Shown here piece after piece: positions 49,590 to 61,549 of a stretch of DNA of 64,000 nt. The stretch's first letter is position 1, and each line of letters begins with the position of its first letter. Below the pieces are notes generated by a model, which was not told the origin of the DNA, did no database searches, and worked only from the letters and a program-made list of their open reading frames with translations. Origin of the DNA: Haladaptatus paucihalophilus DX253 (GTDB lineage: Archaea; Halobacteriota; Halobacteria; Halobacteriales; Haladaptataceae). Both the position numbers and the translations under genes were made by a program. The stretch is taken from NCBI RefSeq assembly GCF_000376445.1, contig NZ_AQXI01000004.1, forward strand, positions 1-64,000. Reading direction: 5' to 3'.

Positions 49590-50423
49590 ATGAAATTCAC
49601 ACGTGAGGAGTCGCTCGCGCGGCTCGAAAAAACGATAGCCAACGGCGAACCTATCATCGGAGCCGGTGCGGGAACCGGTATTTCGGCGAAGTTCGCCGAG
49701 CGAGGCGGCGTCGATATGCTCATCATCTACAACTCGGGACGGTACCGGATGAACGGCCGAGGCTCCCTCGCTGGACTGCTTCCGTACGGCGACGCCAATA
49801 AAATCGTCGTGGAGATGGGCCACGAGGTCCTGCCGGTCGTCGAGGACACGCCGGTCCTTGCGGGTGTCAACGGAACCGACCCGTTCCGTCAAATGGACGT
49901 CTTTATCGAAGATCTGAAACGCCGTGGGTTCTCGGGCGTCCAAAACTTCCCGACGGTTGGGCTTATCGACGAGGGAAGTCAATTCCGGCAGAACATAGAG
50001 GAAACGGGGATGGGCTACGACAAGGAGGTAGACATGATCCAGGAGGCGGCCGAACAGGACATGCTGACCTGTCCGTACGTGTTCACCGAAGAGCAAGCTC
50101 GCGAGATGACCAAGGTGGGTGCCGACGTCATCGTTTCGCACATGGGACTCACCACCTCCGGCGATATCGGTGCGGAGACGGCGCTGGATCTGGACGATGC
50201 CGCGGAACGTGTTCAAGCCCATCACGATGCTGCAAAAGCGGTCAACGACGATGTCATGGTCATCTGTCACGGCGGTCCGATAGCGTGGCCGGACGACGCC
50301 GAGTACGTGCTCAACAATACGGAAGGCGTCGTCGGCTTCTTCGGTGCATCGAGTCTCGAGCGCTTGCCGACAGAAGAAGCGATTCAGAACCAAGCCCGAG
50401 ACTTCAAAGAGATCGAGTTCTAG
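49590..50423 (+). CDS. phosphoenolpyruvate hydrolase-type TIM-barrel protein
   Basis: The 277-residue protein has GEPIIGAGAGTGISAKFAE (near 19-37), IYNSGRYRMNGRGSLAGLLP, and FSGVQNFPTVGLIDE, features of the TIM-barrel family annotated as PEP hydrolase-like, related to PEP mutase/isocitrate lyase. In plants and fungi the same domain is the C-terminal half of Tm-1-like proteins. The next gene encodes the other half and begins one base after this stop. The reaction is not established from sequence. Confidence 0.88.
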   Translation: MKFTREESLARLEKTIANGEPIIGAGAGTGISAKFAERGGVDMLIIYNSGRYRMNGRGSLAGLLPYGDANKIVVEMGHEVLPVVEDTPVLAGVNGTDPFRQMDVFIEDLKRRGFSGVQNFPTVGLIDEGSQFRQNIEETGMGYDKEVDMIQEAAEQDMLTCPYVFTEEQAREMTKVGADVIVSHMGLTTSGDIGAETALDLDDAAERVQAHHDAAKAVNDDVMVICHGGPIAWPDDAEYVLNNTEGVVGFFGASSLERLPTEEAIQNQARDFKEIEF

Positions 50424-50424
50424 C

Positions 50425-51645
50425 ATGGCAGTCGTACTCATCGGGACGCTGGACACGAAAGGGGAGGAACTGGAGTTCGCCCGAGAAATCATCGAAGCAC
50501 ACGATATCGACGTCCACCTGATCGACGTTGGGGTGATGGACGACCCCGACATCGAACCGGAGACGTCGGCACACGATGTTGCCGAGGCGGGTGGTACCAG
50601 CCTCGAACGACTTCGGGAGGGGGCCGACCGTGGGGACGCCATCGAGACGATGGGCGACGGCGCTGCTGCCATCGCATCTCGGCTTCACGACGAGGGCGTT
50701 CTCGAAGGTATCGTGGGACTCGGCGGGTCAGGCAACACCTCTATCGCAACCACAGCGATGCGCGCACTGCCCGTCGGGGTTCCGAAACTGATGGTCTCGA
50801 CGATGGCCTCCGGCGACACGGAACCGTACGTCGGCGCGAAAGACGTGATGATGCTGTACTCGGTCGCCGACATCGAAGGGCTCAATCAGCTCTCCCGCCG
50901 CGTCATCTCCAACGCGACGCTCGCGATGGTTGGTATGGTCGCCAACGAACCGGACATCACGGTCAGTGAAAAACCGACAGTCGCCATCACGATGTTCGGG
51001 GTGACGACTCCTTGCGTGCATGCGGCACGCGAGTATCTGGAATCGAAGGGGTACGAGACGATAGTCTTCCACGCGACCGGAACCGGTGGCCGAGCGATGG
51101 AGCAGCTCGTCAGACAGGGCGTCGTCGACGGCGTGCTCGACGTTACGACAACCGAATGGGCCGACGAACTCGTCGGCGGTGTTCTGAGTGCTGGGGAAAC
51201 ACGGCTCGATGCGGCCGCGGAGATGGGAATTCCACAAGTCGTCTCGCCGGGTGCGCTCGATATGGTCAACTTCGGTCCGCGGGATTCCGTGCCGGAGACG
51301 TTCGAGGGGCGGACGTTCCACATTCACAATCCACAGGTGACGTTGATGCGAACGACACCCGAGGAGAACGCCGAGCTCGGCGAAATCATCGCGAAGAAAC
51401 TGAACGCGTCCACGGGGCCGACTGCGCTGATTCTCCCGCTCGGTGGCGTCTCGCTCATCGATGTCGAGGGAGAAGATTTCCACGACCCGGAGGCGGATTC
51501 GAAGTTGTTCGACGCCCTGCGGGAACACCTCGACGAGAACGTGGAGTTGGTCGAAGTCGATGCCGCGATCAACGACGAGGAGTTCGCGACGGCAATCGCC
51601 GAAAAACTCGACGAGTATCTGCGCGCGACCGATGGTGGTCGATAA
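50425..51645 (+). CDS. Tm-1-like ATP-binding domain protein (UPF0261)
   Basis: The 406-residue protein begins MAVVLIGTLDTKGEELEFAR, the UPF0261/Tm-1-like N-terminus. GLGGSGNTSIATTAMRALP (near 100-118) and ILPLGGVSLIDVEGEDFHDP near the end are family blocks. Tomato Tm-1 carries this ATP-binding domain fused to the TIM-barrel encoded by the previous gene. Here they are separate but translationally adjacent, supporting a physical partnership. The earlier in-frame ATG overlaps the previous coding sequence and is not used. Confidence 0.9.
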   Translation: MAVVLIGTLDTKGEELEFAREIIEAHDIDVHLIDVGVMDDPDIEPETSAHDVAEAGGTSLERLREGADRGDAIETMGDGAAAIASRLHDEGVLEGIVGLGGSGNTSIATTAMRALPVGVPKLMVSTMASGDTEPYVGAKDVMMLYSVADIEGLNQLSRRVISNATLAMVGMVANEPDITVSEKPTVAITMFGVTTPCVHAAREYLESKGYETIVFHATGTGGRAMEQLVRQGVVDGVLDVTTTEWADELVGGVLSAGETRLDAAAEMGIPQVVSPGALDMVNFGPRDSVPETFEGRTFHIHNPQVTLMRTTPEENAELGEIIAKKLNASTGPTALILPLGGVSLIDVEGEDFHDPEADSKLFDALREHLDENVELVEVDAAINDEEFATAIAEKLDEYLRATDGGR

Positions 51646-53224: not shown

Positions 53225-53488
53225 CTACGAATCCACGTCAGCAACGGAAACCGTGCGATCAGAATCAATCGTAACGTGAAACCCGATATACTCGAAGCTC
53301 ACCGTCGGTGAACCATGCTGATAGAGATCCTCGAGTGCATCGGGGTCAATCACCTCATAGAGGGGCGTCGCAGGCTCCGTCCCATTCGCTTCAGTCACCG
53401 CCGTCACCACGGCGGTGGTGATCGACTCGGTGTCTGGACGTGTCGTTCGTATCGATGGCCCTGGCCGCGACGATGACGTGTTCTCCAT
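53225..53488 (-). CDS. HalOD1-domain protein (short, stand-alone)
   Basis: The 87-residue protein is a HalOD1 domain with a short polar lead: SITTAVVTAVTEANG, LYEVIDPDALEDLY and VSFEYIGFHVTIDSDRTVSV follow the family order. It is smaller than the 48021-48404 protein. No partner domain. It is complete with its own ATG. It may interact with signalling proteins. Confidence 0.82.
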   Translation of the reverse strand: MENTSSSRPGPSIRTTRPDTESITTAVVTAVTEANGTEPATPLYEVIDPDALEDLYQHGSPTVSFEYIGFHVTIDSDRTVSVADVDS

Positions 53489-53869
53489 ACGCTCTGGTCA
53501 AGCAAGGTGTGCTAATAGGTTTTAGGGGGTGCTCGGTAGCATATCACACGATTTCTGAACAATCTCACCGAGTCGAGCGTCTCACAGCCTTGCAGTATCG
53601 TACGTTTTGTCGAGGCCGATTTTGATCACGAGGTCCCACTTTCCCACACAGTCACCATCGCTCTCCCAATCGCTGGTTGTACGAGTAGCGATTGGCCTAA
53701 CAAGAATTACGAGACGGGTGGGAACGAAAAGCAACTCCGTCAAGCAGCGACGAAATCTACTCTCTACAAAGCGCCCAACTGCGCGTGTCGTGAAGGGCAC
53801 AAAAAGTACCCGGAGTCAACGACAGGCGTGGAAATAACGGTTACCAACGTGGACGACATTTTCAGGGGG
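53489..53869. other. intergenic region, no gene
   Basis: About 380 bases upstream of HalOD1 and downstream of the oxidase. Frames here lack start context and family similarity. Confidence 0.45.
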
Positions 53870-55309
53870 CTATTCCCTGACGTATTTAATAATACGGGCC
53901 ATCCCGGATTCTAAGTGATAGAGGTTGTGACAGTGGAACAACCAGTTTCCGGGATTGTCTGCGAGGAAGTCGAACGTCACCGACCCCATGTGACCCGGCA
54001 CGATAACCGTGTCCTTCATTGCGTCTCCGACCCGGAAGAAATGCCCGTGGAGGTGCATCGGATGAAGCACCGGACTCCGATTCGTCATCCTCACGCGGAC
54101 GTGTTCGCCTTCCCGGATGTGTAGCGGATCAGCGTCGGGATATGCTTGTCCATCGATGAGCCAGCCATACGAACCACCCATCTCAGGCGACAGCGTCAAG
54201 TCAAACGTCCGGTCGGGGCTTCCACGGAGTTGCTTCGGGAGCTGCATTGCTCGCAGATCGCTATATTGGAGCGTCCGCCCCCACGAGCTGAGACCGGCTG
54301 GAGACTCTGACGAATTTTCATACCGGAGGACCGCACGAGCTGGCTGTTCGTCGCCATCGACTGCCTCTCCTCGTATTTCCCATGCACCGGGATTCGTCGC
54401 TTCGATGATGGCATCGTAGCGTTCGCCGGCACCGAAAACGAACGAATCGACCGGAACGGTGTCAACGGGTTGCCCGTCGGCGTGCGATATCTGTAGTTTA
54501 TGCCCGGCAATTCCGACACGGAATGCAGTCGCACTGCTGGAATTAATAAAGCGTAGGCGGACCCGTTCTCCCTCCTTGACGTCGAATGTGGTGGGATCTG
54601 CTGGTAGACGACCGTTTACGAGCAAGCCGGCGTACGGTGGGCGTCGGTCATCCATCATACCACCCATTCCACTGCCACCCATACCGCCCATCCCGCCACC
54701 ACCGCTACCGCTCGACGATCCTCCGAGCGGTTCGGGTGCGTGGGTCAGATAGTCGTCGAACACGACGGTGTAGTCTCGGTCGTACTCGACATGTGGCGAT
54801 TTCTCTTCGATTACGAGTGGTGCAGATAGCCCGCGGTCGAGTTGGAGTTCGACGTGGCTGTGGAAGAAGTACGTTCCCGCCGGTTTCGCCCGGAATTTGT
54901 ACGTAAACGTCTCGTCCGGCTGGATCGGCCGTTGGGTCACGTTCGGCACGCCGTCCATTTGGTTAGGGACGGGGAGGCCGTGCCAGTGCACCGTTGTTTC
55001 CGTGGGGAGACGGTTCTGCAACTCGACGCGAATGATTTCGTCTTCGGTGACTCGGAGTTCGTTACCAGGGAACGATTCGTTGTACAGCCAGTTCGATGCC
55101 GAAGAAGAGGAAGGAGACACGGTAGCAGGGGAAGCTGTCAGTGTGGCCTGCACGTCCGAATCGCCCGACACTGTGGTCCGTGCGGAGACCGTCTTTTCGT
55201 CGTCGAACGACGGGATAGAACTGGTAGTACAACCAGTGAGGGCCCCGATTCCCGCGACACCAAATCCACGGAGGAGTGCGCGTCGAGAGAGACGTGAGTC
55301 GTCCGTCAT
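53870..55309 (-). CDS. multicopper oxidase, Tat lipoprotein with Met/Gly-rich insert
   Basis: The 479-residue protein has a Tat signal with lipobox (SRRALLRGFGVAGIGALTGC). The four copper-site motifs are complete: TVHWHGLP, TYFFHSHVELQLD, HPMHLHGHFF and LFHCHNLYHLESGM with the type 1 Cys. A Gly/Ser/Met run (GMGGMGGSGMGGMM) lies in the middle domain, resembling the Met-rich inserts of copper-tolerance oxidases. It is expected to oxidise metal ions or phenols outside the membrane using O2. The frame upstream of ATG 55309 is non-coding. Confidence 0.93.
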   Translation of the reverse strand: MTDDSRLSRRALLRGFGVAGIGALTGCTTSSIPSFDDEKTVSARTTVSGDSDVQATLTASPATVSPSSSSASNWLYNESFPGNELRVTEDEIIRVELQNRLPTETTVHWHGLPVPNQMDGVPNVTQRPIQPDETFTYKFRAKPAGTYFFHSHVELQLDRGLSAPLVIEEKSPHVEYDRDYTVVFDDYLTHAPEPLGGSSSGSGGGGMGGMGGSGMGGMMDDRRPPYAGLLVNGRLPADPTTFDVKEGERVRLRFINSSSATAFRVGIAGHKLQISHADGQPVDTVPVDSFVFGAGERYDAIIEATNPGAWEIRGEAVDGDEQPARAVLRYENSSESPAGLSSWGRTLQYSDLRAMQLPKQLRGSPDRTFDLTLSPEMGGSYGWLIDGQAYPDADPLHIREGEHVRVRMTNRSPVLHPMHLHGHFFRVGDAMKDTVIVPGHMGSVTFDFLADNPGNWLFHCHNLYHLESGMARIIKYVRE

Positions 55310-55634
55310 CGGTCGGCATACGAACCGGAACATAATAAGGTGCAATATTGGGATTTTTATGAAAGATACTGATCGGGCACGCAACCACGAACGAGACGAT
55401 GTCGAAATTGTCGGACTACAGCACTGACTGAACCCACAGAAATTGAGGGTGATTAGAGTTCGGACACACATCAAGTCACGGGACCCGGGTGTAGTCCACT
55501 TCCGCTTACGAAGGCGGAAGTGGTACACCACTTAGAAACTCATTTACGCCAATTTCAAAAGAATAGATCGAGCGAAAAGAACTAGACAGCGAAAATCCAT
55601 ACTGCTTTATCCAAGCCACAACCATCCCCTATCC
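55310..55634. other. divergent intergenic region, oxidase and ArsR-like gene
   Basis: About 325 bases. A hairpin-forming AGTCCACTTCCGCTTACGAA / GGCGGAAGTGGTACACCACTT pairing is present near 55493-55531, with CCACTTCCGC matched by GCGGAAGTGG. No gene. The hairpin could be an operator or terminator. Confidence 0.45.
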
Positions 55635-55997
55635 GTGTGTGAGGACAGTGCCTCTCGTAAACTCCTATCCCTCCTAGGAGACGAACACGTCCAAGCCATA
55701 CTATCTGTTACGAGTGAGCAACCCATGTCCGCGAACGAACTGAGTGATGCCTGTGGTATTTCACTACCAACTGTGTATAGACGGCTCGAGGAACTGGTCG
55801 AACACGACTTGCTTTCCGAACAGAACAAGATAGCATCCGACGGAAATCACTATAAGACGTACGAAGCGGCAGTAGAGCGGATCGGCGTTCGACTCCATCA
55901 GGGTCAGTTTGACGTCGACATCGGAGAACAGCCACCTACCGATGCCCCAGAGCGATTCAATCGGTTGTGGGATGACATCCGAGGGGATGATTCCTAA
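55635..55997 (+). CDS. ArsR-like winged-helix regulator
   Basis: The 120-residue protein begins at GTG 55635 and has SASRKLLSLLGDEHVQAILSV, ANELSDACGISLPTVYRRLEEL and a wing, then a short tail. It overlaps the DUF7521 gene by one base, a pairing often seen in haloarchaea where the regulator and a small membrane protein are co-expressed. It may respond to a metal or stress, but no metal-binding Cys pair is evident. It is divergent from the multicopper oxidase. Confidence 0.85.
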   Translation: MCEDSASRKLLSLLGDEHVQAILSVTSEQPMSANELSDACGISLPTVYRRLEELVEHDLLSEQNKIASDGNHYKTYEAAVERIGVRLHQGQFDVDIGEQPPTDAPERFNRLWDDIRGDDS

Positions 55998-56269
55998 TGC
56001 ACGCTGGACTCATCGTGGCGAAAATCATCGTAATAATACTTGGAGTTCTCATTGCACTCCAAAGCTATCGTGCGTACAGGCGATACGACAATCAACCGAT
56101 GCTCTTCCTCGCAATCGGGTTTGTGATGATCAGCATCGGTGCCGTAATCGAAGGGATACTGTTCGACATCGCCAACGTGTCGATTTTCTATTCTGGAATG
56201 ATTCAGTCGATAATCGTCATCGTTGGAATGGGTTTCGTCCTCTATTCTCTCTACTATCAACCAACGTAG
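55997..56269 (+). CDS. DUF7521-type small membrane protein
   Basis: The 90-residue protein has three membrane helices (about 6-24, 34-54, 64-84) and the QSYRAYRRYDNQPMLFLAIGF block of the haloarchaeal DUF7521 family. It immediately follows the ArsR-like regulator. The family is thought to accompany stress regulators, but its role is unknown. Confidence 0.85.
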   Translation: MHAGLIVAKIIVIILGVLIALQSYRAYRRYDNQPMLFLAIGFVMISIGAVIEGILFDIANVSIFYSGMIQSIIVIVGMGFVLYSLYYQPT

Positions 56270-56344
56270 GGACCTAGGAGAACGGAATGGAATCTATGTA
56301 TGCGAGAGGCGCAGCAGAGTTTGGCTGTTCTCGACGCGTTCGGC

Positions 56345-56699
56345 ACACGTACCGATTATTGATGTCACGTTGTAGGCGACCACGACGAGTCTCGAACTCT
56401 TCTTCAGAAAGTTCCCACGTCCATACGCTAATCGGAGTTCTTCGAGTGCCGGGTCGGTTCCTACGCCAGCTCGCGCAAGGGCACGATGGATAAGGTAGCC
56501 ACTGCCATCAGGATAATCAGTGGGATGAGCATCATGACCCATCCCCAGCTCGGAGTGACGTAACCGCTAACCCGGACCCATCCTCCACCCACCCAGTAGC
56601 GGGAATGCGAACAGCATCACCACCACTGGGATGAGAAGGAGGACTGCAAGAACGATGTTGCGATGTCGCCGACCACTACAGTAAGAATCGACCAAGGTA
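56345..56699 (-). pseudogene. decayed SHOCT-domain membrane protein
   Basis: Three frames must be joined: IVLAVLLLIPVVVMLFAFPL, then MMLIPLIILMAVA, then SGYLIHRALARAG and DPALEELRLAYGRGN, and finally EEEFETRRGRLQRDINNR. Together they match the two-helix plus SHOCT architecture of the intact protein at 13739-14104. At least two frameshifts interrupt it. The start would lie near 56699. Confidence 0.6.
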
Positions 56700-56759
56700 C
56701 GCAACTCGTGCTGGAACGTCTGGGAAACAACTTACCGTTAGTACGTCAAAAAGAGAGAT

Positions 56760-56939
56760 ATGGGAAACGAATGTACGTACTGTGGTAGCAATATCGAGCG
56801 GCACGACCCTGTATTCGTTAATGTGGGCGCGAACACCAGTACGAACCAAGCGGGACAGTTCTGCAATTATGCCTGCCTCGCAACACACATCGAAGAAGAG
56901 GGGTTGACTGATGGTGCCGCTTGTGAGTGGCCTTGCTAA
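56760..56939 (+). CDS. Cys-rich miniprotein (59 aa), possible metal-binding protein
   Basis: The frame begins MGNECTYCGSNIERHDPVFV and ends DGAACEWPC before TAA. Six Cys (CxxC, CxxxC and two more at the end) in 59 residues with NYACLATHIEEEG suggest a TRASH-like or zinc-ribbon metal site. It is complete, has haloarchaeal composition and lies among metal-associated genes. It is too short to be found by length-based gene calling. Confidence 0.65.
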   Translation: MGNECTYCGSNIERHDPVFVNVGANTSTNQAGQFCNYACLATHIEEEGLTDGAACEWPC

Positions 56940-57029
56940 GTTCAGACCCACTCCCCATCTGAAGATCAGTTAGAGGACAGATATGTGTATAATCTGGCTG
57001 ACTGTGATCGAATGAGATGTACTCGATAA

Positions 57030-57290
57030 TTAGCGAACGAGTCGAGTCTTAACTGTCCCCAGCAGTCCAGTCCGTTTGGTCGACTCGTCTTTTGAACTGT
57101 TTGAATCCGCCTGTTCTCCTGCAGTCTCGCCCAGTCTCGCTTCTTCATACTCTGCAATCATGTGCGCCACGTGACGATTGCACATATCCCTGGATACGCG
57201 TCCGACCTACATAACTGTTTGATCGATGGTGGGGGATATCACATGGGCGACAAGAGTCTGTCGAATAAAACGAAACGAGGGACGGATTCC
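57030..57290 (-). pseudogene. frameshifted small zinc-finger gene
   Basis: One frame supplies STDSCRPCDIPHHRSNSYVG and the next supplies CNRHVAHMIAEYEEARLGET and a charged tail ending KTRLVR before TAA (57030-57032). CxxC followed by CNRH resembles a C2CH zinc finger split by a one-base indel near 57175. The second half has its own ATG at 57161 and could still be translated as 43 residues. Confidence 0.4.
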
Positions 57291-57380
57291 AGAACCATCC
57301 AAAGGAGACCACCACGAATTGCTTGCGAATGCAAACCAACAGTATCCGAATCACAGTCTTGCCGAGATTCCCACATTTGC

Positions 57381-58085
57381 TCAGTGCCGAGCGCGTTGTC
57401 GGTGACGCAAAAGTAGGAAACCAAGAGCGATGATGAGAAGTACCTGTACCACTTTATCGATCAGACCGAAACTTCCGACGTGGGGCATTCCATCAGTGAT
57501 CCACAGGAGGATTTGAACAGCCGTATAGAGAATCCCCACACCATAGAGATACAGTCGGTTGACATCGATAAAGAACAGACCAATGCCACCGAGAAATCCG
57601 AGTCCGGCAAGGGCCATTATCTGTTCGCCATGTTCGAAATAGAGATAAAAGTGCACGGCAGCAGTAAAGAGTACAAGTAGCGCGACGCCAAAGTGAATTG
57701 GAGAGGCTGTGAAGTTCTGCCGGCGTGTACTGGTGTACCGATACACTGGTGCCGTTGCAACGGTTCCTAACAGGAACAGTCCACCGACGATCATCAGCCA
57801 GCCATTCACGAATCCTTCTTCATCACCGCTGTGTCCCTCCCCTTCGTGGCTGTGGCCTGATTCGGACTGACTTTCCCCCGCGTCTGTCTTCCCACCATGT
57901 CCTGATTCGGTTGCCGTCTCTGTGCCATGTTGTCCCCCATCGTTATGGCCATCGGCCTGACCCGATGTCGTCGACGTTGTTGTATGATCTTCACTACTTG
58001 CCATCGAAAAACCTGGTGAAACAACCAGAAAGACGATGCTCAGTATGAGGAGTACGCGTCCAATTCGTTGCCAGTTGGGTTTCAT
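57381..58085 (-). CDS. His-rich membrane protein with N-terminal signal (DUF7475-like)
   Basis: The 234-residue protein has an N-terminal signal-like helix (about 10-30), a His/Gly/Ser/Glu-rich linker (about 33-88, with HNDGGQHG, SGHGG and GHSHEGEGHSG) and four membrane helices (about 93-232). The His-rich loop could bind copper, nickel or zinc on the outer face. I associate the membrane part with the haloarchaeal DUF7475 family. Its neighbours include a multicopper oxidase, suggesting a metal-handling role, an inference. Confidence 0.75.
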   Translation of the reverse strand: MKPNWQRIGRVLLILSIVFLVVSPGFSMASSEDHTTTSTTSGQADGHNDGGQHGTETATESGHGGKTDAGESQSESGHSHEGEGHSGDEEGFVNGWLMIVGGLFLLGTVATAPVYRYTSTRRQNFTASPIHFGVALLVLFTAAVHFYLYFEHGEQIMALAGLGFLGGIGLFFIDVNRLYLYGVGILYTAVQILLWITDGMPHVGSFGLIDKVVQVLLIIALGFLLLRHRQRARH

Positions 58086-58229: not shown

Positions 58230-58416
58230 TATTCTCAGGGCATGATGTTGCTCATCCCGAAGAACCGCCATTCCAACGTCATACTCATGGAGAACTCAAC
58301 GATGTAGCCGACCGTGGACTTCTTGGAATTGCGTGCTTCGCGTTTGTTCTTGGATTCGCCCACGAAGAAGAGTTCCAAATCATTTGGCTCTGTTCGGGAT
58401 CACGGTACCGACATGA
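58230..58416 (+). pseudogene. fragment of a nickel/cobalt-transporter-like membrane protein
   Basis: HTHGELNDVADRGLLGIACF and AFVLGFAHEEEFQIIWLC read in one frame at about 58280-58405, with a His-rich HDVAHPEEPP lead. The GFAHEEEF block recalls the permease motif of haloarchaeal NicT/RcnA-like metal transporters. A TGA soon follows, with no further homologous sequence, so only a piece remains. Confidence 0.45.
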
Positions 58417-59683: not shown

Positions 59684-61549
59684 ATGGTGTCAGACAGGCA
59701 AAATCGAAGTATCGCAAGTCGTAGAACCTATCTTAAACTAACCGGATCAATCATAGCATCGTCTGCAATCATGGGGACTGCTTCTTCATCCCTGTCAGAT
59801 TACAATGACCAGTACGATAACGTAATTGATGTGACGGAGGCCGGAGCGGACAACGGTGGGAACGAATCTATCACACCAGTACTCGAAGACAATGCGGACG
59901 ACAATACGCTCCTTTACTTCCCTGAAGGGGAGTATTATATGGATTCGCAGTTCCGCTTTACTGGCTTTACAAACTTCGGGATGGTCGGCAACGACGCGAC
60001 ACTCGTCCCGGCGAACTACCACGACTTCGACGACGACGGCGACGGAAACTACCGACTCTTCCGAATGGGCGTCGACTACGATCCCGGAACAGACCTGCGA
60101 ATCGAGGGGTTCACCGTCGACCAAACGGCGGACGACACCGGTATCCGTGTCATCGAGGCCGAGGTAACCGACGGGTTGACCATCCGCGATATCGAGATCG
60201 AGGGCAAACACGACAGTGGAACGTGGGGCCCGCTCCGAGCCGTCGTGCACAACTCGGACGGTAGCGGTCTCGTCGAACGGTTCGAGGCACCTGACGGCGG
60301 CGCGTGGGAAGGGAACACACCGAGCGATTCCCTGTGGCGTGGACCGACCGGTATCCTCTGCAACGAAGCGAACAAGGGAAAGATGACGTTTCGCGACTGT
60401 GTACTCGGAAGCTTCCCGGACAACGGGTTGTACGCCGCCAACGGGTCCGGTGCTATCCAGGTCGAAGGTGGTCACTTCCAGAACAGTCTGAGTTCGAACG
60501 TCCGTATCGGTGGCAAGGACAGTTACATCGAGAACGCCACTATCATCATTGACAAAGAGAGCGACAGCGGTATCGCCCAGCGTGGTCTCCGCGTGGAGGG
60601 AGGCGCCAACATCGTCGCACGGAATGTCGACATACGGACGAACATCGATAATAGTCCCGCAATTTGGGTCACGAGCGATGCGGACGACGTAACGGTTGTC
60701 GACTCCACTATCACGGCTCGAACCGATGGCACAACGAATGCAATTTTCATTCAGGAATCTTCGGGTCGAACGAGTATCAAGCGAACGACCGTCGATCACG
60801 AGGCGGGGGGTTCGGAGGCTATCAAAATCAAGGAGGGTGACCAGCCGGTTTCCCTCGAAAACGTCACCGTCACCGGGAACGCAGCGACCAAGGGTACCCG
60901 GAGTGCCATCCAGAACAACCGTGACGATAGCGAGTTCCGCAATCTGAAAGTCCACCACGGCGGTGAAGCGGGCCGACGGGCGCTGACGAACACAGGGAAC
61001 AACGTCGTGATCTACGAAGGCGATTACGTCTCCGAAGAAAACGCGCTTGTGGAGGCCGGTAGCGGAACGATGATAGAAAGCGTCTCCGCACTCGCACGCA
61101 GCGGGAACGAGGCACTTCGCATCACGAGTGACGCCGAAGGAGTCACCGTCACGGACTCCCACATAGAGAACGGCATCGACGACAGCAGTCCGGACGGGTA
61201 CGAAGGCAGCAACAACAGCTGGGAGTACGACGGCGGCGACGAGGACGACGGCAACTCCGGCGGAGATTCCAGTGGTGACTCCGGTGGAGATTCCAGTGGT
61301 GATTCCGGTGGTGACTCTGGTGGAGATTCCAGTGGTGACTCCGGTGGAGATTCCAGTGGTGATTCCGGTGGTGACTCTGGTGGAGATTCCAGTGGTGATT
61401 CCGGTGGTGACTCTGGAGGCGACTCCGGCGGAGATTCCGGTGGTGACTCTAGCGGTGATTCCGGCGGAGATTCCAGTGGCGATTCCGGCGGTGATTCGGG
61501 TGGCGATTCCGGTGGTGACACTGGGGACGACCAGGACGACCGCTGTTGA
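59684..61549 (+). CDS. secreted right-handed beta-helix protein with SGD-repeat tail
   Basis: The 621-residue protein has a Tat signal (SRRTYLKLTGSIIASSAIM), then a long parallel beta-helix with repeated TIRDIEIEG-, NVRIGGKDSYIENATI- and NIVARNVDIRTN-like coils (about 40-505) as in pectate-lyase-fold proteins. The last 98 residues are a repeated Ser/Gly/Asp run, highly acidic and disordered. It probably binds or degrades surface polysaccharide, with the repeat acting as stalk or calcium sink. A longer start five codons upstream is possible. Confidence 0.88.
   Translation: MVSDRQNRSIASRRTYLKLTGSIIASSAIMGTASSSLSDYNDQYDNVIDVTEAGADNGGNESITPVLEDNADDNTLLYFPEGEYYMDSQFRFTGFTNFGMVGNDATLVPANYHDFDDDGDGNYRLFRMGVDYDPGTDLRIEGFTVDQTADDTGIRVIEAEVTDGLTIRDIEIEGKHDSGTWGPLRAVVHNSDGSGLVERFEAPDGGAWEGNTPSDSLWRGPTGILCNEANKGKMTFRDCVLGSFPDNGLYAANGSGAIQVEGGHFQNSLSSNVRIGGKDSYIENATIIIDKESDSGIAQRGLRVEGGANIVARNVDIRTNIDNSPAIWVTSDADDVTVVDSTITARTDGTTNAIFIQESSGRTSIKRTTVDHEAGGSEAIKIKEGDQPVSLENVTVTGNAATKGTRSAIQNNRDDSEFRNLKVHHGGEAGRRALTNTGNNVVIYEGDYVSEENALVEAGSGTMIESVSALARSGNEALRITSDAEGVTVTDSHIENGIDDSSPDGYEGSNNSWEYDGGDEDDGNSGGDSSGDSGGDSSGDSGGDSGGDSSGDSGGDSSGDSGGDSGGDSSGDSGGDSGGDSGGDSGGDSSGDSGGDSSGDSGGDSGGDSGGDTGDDQDDRC
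61255..61530. repeat. SGD-coding tandem repeat
   Basis: GGTGGAGATTCCAGTGGTGA-like units recur. A 60-base block is tandemly duplicated at 61261-61320 and 61321-61380 with one difference, on a background of 12- and 24-base units. The length is variable in principle by slippage. Confidence 0.93.

Follow-up and report, generated by a model that had tools for sequence, protein, structure and literature searches.

Copper islands and multicopper oxidases are already known: the excerpted text of PMC3600143 describes a TRASH-domain copper regulator and the ATPase YvgX in Halobacterium, and that of PMC9240420 lists a multicopper oxidase (MCO) and cupredoxins for Haloferax mediterranei. This study examined a gene cluster in a 64,000-nucleotide stretch of Haladaptatus paucihalophilus DX253 (hereafter the window), which forms the start of a 316,765-bp contig (NZ_AQXI01000004.1) in a six-contig genome of 4.32 Mb; the largest contig seen has 2,950,504 bp, and the 317-kb contig is probably a secondary replicon. 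Within 4.2 kb, the window holds an intact MCO gene, a winged-helix regulator gene (HTH) overlapping a gene for a DUF7521 membrane protein, a miniprotein with six Cys residues and a membrane protein with a His-rich N-terminal arm (His-arm protein), with the remnant of a NicO-like transporter gene next to them. The region is probably a collapsed copper-homeostasis island in which the MCO, a copper-linked HTH-DUF7521 pair, the His-arm accessory and the TRASH-like miniprotein survive, because relatives keep most of these genes among TRASH-Lrp, DUF326 and ArsP-YHS genes and, in some of them, DUF302 and CopA-like genes.

The window cluster is thus a shrunken case of a known type. The new element would be a clue to what DUF7521 and the DUF7475-like His-arm protein do; neither DUF7521 nor DUF7475 was found by name in the library of open-licence PMC papers that was searched. 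The HTH-DUF7521 clade is the part most worth following: if one clade can be tied to copper, with specific residues and a candidate target identified, a regulator type common among archaea would become open to experiment.

Fuller islands in relatives

Homologues of the window genes were found in contig stretches of five genomes of the same genus (contigs of 67 to 487 kb). The HTH-DUF7521 pair, the His-arm protein, an ArsP permease and DUF326 occur in all five (G002, G004, G006, G007 and G008), as does a TRASH-Lrp regulator, for which the G004 match is weak and partial. DUF302 is present in three (G002, G004, G007), and a full CopA-like ATPase in G002, G006 and G008, with none in the G004 and G007 stretches; many CopA-labelled matches are more distant P-type ATPases, and the label does not fix the metal moved. 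The MCO was detected at E 1e-60 in four of nine same-genus genomes (G000, G002, G004, G007), the G004 copy lying on a 205,464-bp contig at 129857-131314. In a genome of another family (G398), some 10 kb of locus L223 carry DUF411, MCO, His-arm, HTH, DUF7521 and DUF326 genes along with TRASH-Lrp, Cys protein, SHOCT, DUF302 and P-type ATPase genes. As a separate observation, genes for a carbamoyltransferase and a protein of about 350 residues lie beside MCO/HTH genes in G007 (L112:13177-15968) and G015 (L117:9268-13466); one of the two genomes also has a gene there for the small chain of carbamoyl-phosphate synthase, and these genes may form a biosynthetic unit linked to the island.

This recurrence was compared with 20 control stretches of 19.5 kb at places chosen blind (14 on C1 contigs, 6 elsewhere), with markers counted at E 1e-5. 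Core copper genes were present at all 11 His-arm loci (a set that includes the window, with two stretches pooled for each of G004 and G007 and the MCO also accepted as a marker), at 14 of the 20 MCO loci taken from 63 MCO places, and at one of 20 controls, where the marker was a DUF411. Comparing MCO loci with controls, 20 of each, gave 11 vs 0 for DUF302, 11 vs 1 for SHOCT, 8 vs 0 for CopA, 6 vs 0 for ArsP, 5 vs 0 for DUF326, 4 vs 0 for TRASH-Lrp and 0 vs 1 for DUF411. The conserved clustering that the initial annotation had proposed to look for by neighbourhood comparison was therefore borne out, the same genes recurring in other genomes.

The island in the window is reduced. When relatives' proteins were compared with the window, additional remnants were revealed, bringing the broken members to four out of nine gene-like features (the DUF411, SHOCT, CuA-like and NicO-like remnants), and the same homology search gave no match in the window to CopA, TRASH-Lrp, DUF302 or ArsP. 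Judged by a copper ATPase and a TRASH-Lrp regulator among its members, the cluster is therefore not a haloarchaeal copper island of the full kind. Both the breakage and these absences would be expected if the island were being lost and its intact genes had no present role, a reading made unlikely by the state of those genes. The MCO, HTH, DUF7521 and His-arm genes are all open and under purifying selection, with ratios of nonsynonymous to synonymous substitution (dN/dS) against the nearest relatives of 0.09-0.15 for the MCO (G007, G002 and G004) and, with G008 and G007, of 0.13-0.18, 0.05-0.07 and 0.15-0.19 for the HTH, DUF7521 and His-arm genes, respectively; saturated-site comparisons were excluded, and dN/dS averages over time and is blind to recent loss of function.

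The HTH-DUF7521 pair and copper-protein genes

The HTH and DUF7521 genes of the window share one base. To place the pair, stretches of about 13 kb around 60 further HTH loci were read, 51 of which gave a scored pair. When the HTH and DUF7521 sequences were concatenated and a tree was built from 59 rows (midpoint root), the nine island pairs, which represent four families, formed one group at 94/95, next to a group of seven pairs at 95/86, and the two groups joined at 91/75. Glu52 of DUF7521 is found in all nine island pairs and in 8 of the 51 others, and position 57 is acidic in nine of nine island pairs and in seven of the eight other Glu52 pairs, the exception (L301) having a frame break.

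One clade is associated with copper-protein genes. In seven of the eight non-island Glu52 pairs, a plastocyanin-family gene (PF00127 in the two proteins tested) is divergent within 600 bp, whereas a divergent cupredoxin, His-arm, ArsP or MCO gene within that distance was found at 0 of 43 non-Glu52 pairs (p 7e-8, which overstates the evidence because the rows are related). The eighth pair, L294, has a divergent DoxX gene, with CopA-like genes nearby, and falls outside the joint tree group.

The cupredoxin class was recognised only partway through the analysis, after a test with strict markers, and held-out loci were therefore examined, namely 15 of the 57 HTH places, the other 42 having already been read. 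The DUF7521 score served as proxy for Glu52, since non-Glu52 pairs never exceeded 73 bits, with the Glu52 pair L294 at 68 bits. At eight of the 15, HTH is directly followed by a DUF7521 scoring at least 84 bits, and a halocyanin-like gene is divergent within about 270 bp in 8/8 of these vs 0/7 of the others (p 1.6e-4). Because one of the eight is a second G244 copy of a locus already seen, the unseen tally is 7/7 vs 0/7, and three of these seven loci come from one genus. Based on these sequence associations, we propose that the HTH-DUF7521 clade with Glu52 is a copper-linked regulator.

Alternatively, HTH-DUF7521 could be a general-purpose regulator type whose location in copper islands is incidental. 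Its distribution is broad: HTH homologues occur in all 28 genomes of the family (1 to 11 places each), DUF7521 adjoins HTH at 54 of 57 HTH loci examined for this (island loci included), and 34 of the 43 non-Glu52 pairs lack a copper marker within 6.5 kb. However, the island pairs cluster in the tree and have Glu52 in common, and the neighbouring clade is divergent from plastocyanin-like genes at held-out loci too, which makes an incidental location improbable for these pairs. The type may be general overall and one of its clades copper-specific.

Several results weigh against a copper island with a copper-linked regulator. No relative of the CopA ATPase lies on the window contig (also as expected of a dying island), the nearest one being on C3 of the same genome. 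The His-arm protein is in none of the 20 other MCO loci, and MCO and His-arm protein are therefore separable; in addition, 14 of the 20 controls come from the largest contigs, while islands often sit on smaller ones. A tree of HTH alone split the island HTHs into two groups, which the addition of DUF7521 united. With the strict markers (no cupredoxins), Glu52 pairs were not enriched (2/8 vs 6/43, p 0.6), and a copper marker within 6.5 kb is also present at 9 of the 43 non-Glu52 pairs. Within 600 bp, a copper-protein gene lies divergent to only four of the nine island pairs, namely the MCO in the window, ArsP in G008 and the His-arm gene in G398 and G150, and among these the MCO adjacency of the window looks derived; of the remaining pairs, that of G007 has a SHOCT gene in this place, and those of G002, G004, G006 and G357 have no marker.

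Two further observations concern HTH loci. A palindrome, GTTTTGCG-N5-CGCAAAAC, is present in three halocyanin/HTH regions, each from a different genome (L322:5899-5919, L332:6704-6724 and L334:6263-6283), and was otherwise absent across 338 loci (L194 being the L322 place again), making it a candidate operator by sequence. The genome of the window itself has another HTH-DUF7521 pair, whose DUF7521 scores low, next to the CopA ATPase that most resembles the G002 one (L233:9323-12687, G000:C3).

Genes, remnants and junction of the window

All the features listed by the initial annotation are present (Table 1); the DUF411, SHOCT and CuA-like remnants are additions to that list.

Table 1. Features of the cluster, with positions in the window and the evidence for each
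Feature	Positions	Strand	Evidence
DUF411 (CopG-like) remnant	53651..53867	+	phmmer 78 bits, partial; tblastn 60% over residues 21-92 of L105:7759-8286
Multicopper oxidase (MCO), 479 aa	53870..55309	-	three cupredoxin domains, Pfam PF07732, PF00394, PF07731 above cut-off
Junction segment	55373..55523		no match in relatives compared; homology limits 55372, 55524; ends in palindrome 55496-55523
Regulator upstream region	55524..55634	+	matches G008 ArsP/HTH divergent region; 87% over 197 bases, into HTH gene
Winged-helix regulator (HTH_20), 120 aa	55635..55997	+	Pfam 45.4 bits, cut-off 27
DUF7521 membrane protein, 90 aa, with Glu52 and Asp57	55997..56269	+	Pfam 88.3 bits, above cut-off of 27
SHOCT-type membrane protein, split over frames	56352..56657	-	two-frame matches; 79% DNA identity to L112:11301-11610
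6-Cys miniprotein, 59 aa, zf-FCS/TRASH-like	56760..56939	+	PF06467 19.7 bits (cut-off 22.4), PF24461 18.9 (27)
CuA-like lipoprotein remnant (CxxxCxxxHxxM, by eye)	57268..57376	+	61% over 36 residues of L121:3949-4611
Membrane protein with leader and His-rich N-terminal arm, DUF7475-like, 234 aa	57381..58085	-	PF24287 27.3 bits
NicO-like transporter remnant	58274..58409	+	56 bits to L109:4861-5862; 63% over 43 residues

The MCO start was assigned to the ATG at 55309, and the 553-residue open reading frame (ORF) listed from 55531 is too long, because the G007 MCO begins with the identical MTDDSRLSRR. All four copper motifs are present (HWHG at 108, HSH at 150, HPMHLHGH at 416 and HCHNLYHLESGM at 459), and the leader, judged by eye, is of twin-Arg type with a Cys. 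Composition p values, calculated after the stretches had already been chosen, are 1.6e-5 for the five Met in one 16-residue Gly linker of the MCO, 1e-6 for the six Cys among the 59 residues of the miniprotein and 3e-4 for the seven His within the 60-residue arm. The Cys-rich and His-rich character first ascribed to the latter two proteins thus stands. The description of the oxidase as Met-rich holds for an intact MCO with a local enrichment in the Gly/Met linker and not for the protein overall, since Met makes up 14 of its 479 residues (2.9%) vs 2.1% across the other called proteins of the window.

For the miniprotein, the two scores in Table 1 fall below the cut-offs of zf-FCS (PF06467) and DUF7576 (PF24461), placing it in neither family. 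Homologues were found in 20 of the 28 family genomes, with a copper-type marker within the 1.5-kb flanks at 4 of 22 other loci; the single dN/dS comparison had dS saturated (pN/pS 0.18). The His-arm protein is likewise below the DUF7475 cut-off of 31.3 bits, its G002 relative scoring 30.4. Twelve proteins from eleven genomes combine a leader with an N-terminal arm in which the number of His ranges from 2 to 18 and both length and repeats vary; all but one are among the best-scoring relatives, the exception being a truncated second copy from G004. The other listed relatives lack a comparable arm, as far as ORF starts permit; L227 (G096), where the start is ambiguous and no HTH match was found, was excluded from the count. 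AlphaFold2 models of the MCO (four sequences) and the His-arm protein (three sequences) had mean predicted local distance difference test (pLDDT) scores of 51 and 58, respectively; they were too poor and were not used.

Among the remnants, the DUF411 one sits downstream of the MCO, as in G002, and its relative (L105:7759-8286) has PF04214, whereas the relative of the CuA-like remnant (L121:3949-4611) has no Pfam match. The metal-transporter fragment of the initial annotation is most likely the NicO-like remnant, slightly beyond the end of the cluster as first drawn. That annotation had left the metal as copper or nickel; the recurrence with TRASH-Lrp, DUF326, ArsP-YHS, DUF302 and CopA-like ATPases upholds the copper part, and copper is likely the metal handled. 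Handling of nickel or cobalt is very unlikely: the NicO-like remnant, a His-rich arm that could bind nickel and a dipeptide-type ATP-binding cassette (ABC) operon in two relatives point weakly to it, but the NicO gene is broken, its relative scores 23.6 bits against a Pfam cut-off of 27.7, and the MCO, DUF411, DUF302, TRASH-Lrp and CopA-like neighbours indicate copper. The operon in question, of SBP_bac_5 dipeptide/nickel type, immediately precedes HTH-DUF7521, in the same orientation, in G002 and G004 (L106:96-5961 and L108:2605-8689).

DNA similarity to relatives ends at 55372 on the MCO side and begins again on the regulator side at 55524, where the similarity is to G008, in which the regulator diverges from an ArsP-YHS permease. 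The 151-bp junction between these limits closes with a perfect 10-bp inverted repeat (55496-55523). From this sequence, the MCO/regulator adjacency in the window looks like a join made by recombination after the loss of DUF302 and ArsP. The palindrome as an abundant mobile element found no support, there being one other place in the genome within three mismatches, itself with three. In G007, the ArsP gene is preceded by an incomplete copy of the 5' end of HTH together with its upstream region (L112:11013-11193).

Outside the cluster, a stand-alone HalOD1 domain protein adjoins the island (53225-53488, minus strand). A PEP_hydrolase-like gene followed by a UPF0261 gene occupies 49590-51645 (plus strand), and a protein with a long Gly/Asp/Ser repeat at its end and no Pfam match is encoded at 59771-61549 (plus strand).

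Proposed mechanism and known systems

For the metal, the biochemical activities, the membrane topology and the direction of regulation, we infer the following. By its family, the exported MCO would oxidise Cu(I) to Cu(II) outside the membrane. The His-arm protein would be a copper-binding accessory of the island with its His-rich arm extracellular, and the surviving TRASH-like miniprotein may be a fourth component. HTH would act as a transcription factor on neighbouring copper-protein genes, its activity set by its DUF7521 membrane partner. More specifically, and as a tentative suggestion only, HTH-DUF7521 could be a split, membrane-coupled archaeal regulator in which DUF7521 uses acidic residues in a hydrophobic stretch (Glu52, Asp/Glu57) to sense either copper or a membrane cupredoxin's state. 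The signal would be relayed to the co-translated HTH, whose target would be a copper-protein gene close by, often in divergent orientation, encoding a halocyanin, a His-arm protein or an ArsP-YHS permease. Different membrane signals would then be sensed by the remaining DUF7521 clades.

Compared with described regulators, HTH shares the winged-helix fold family with the ArsR/SmtB metalloregulators but scores 23.3 bits against the cut-off of 55 of their curated model NF033788. Its single conserved Cys, Cys40, is not specific to island homologues, being also found in 50 of 53 non-island ones. Of the ArsR-like/DUF7521 pair initially suggested, the pair was therefore retained, and the regulator was reassigned from the ArsR metalloregulators to HTH_20.

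The MCO resembles the CopA/PcoA-type copper-resistance oxidases and laccases in its three cupredoxin domains, four copper motifs and Met-containing linker. Its best NCBIfam model is copper_res_A (TIGR01480), where its 283.9 bits are below the curated cut-off of 478.95, so that by this rule it differs from the CopA oxidases and is not a member. Haloferax LccA is likewise among the nearest described systems.

The Cys miniprotein is similar to the haloarchaeal zinc-finger micro-proteins in the excerpted text of PMC10716476, which have fewer than 70 residues and paired Cys motifs; it has a CxxC and then a CxxxC of zf-FCS/TRASH-like type, whereas those described in that text have two C(P)XCG motifs instead. 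Relative to the Halobacterium system of a TRASH-Lrp regulator and the YvgX copper ATPase, as far as the excerpt of PMC3600143 covers it, the window cluster is without an adjacent TRASH-Lrp and ATPase, and its HTH-DUF7521 pair is without a TRASH domain; among the islands of the relatives, HVO_1752-like TRASH-Lrp genes and CopA-like ATPases do occur, as in that system.

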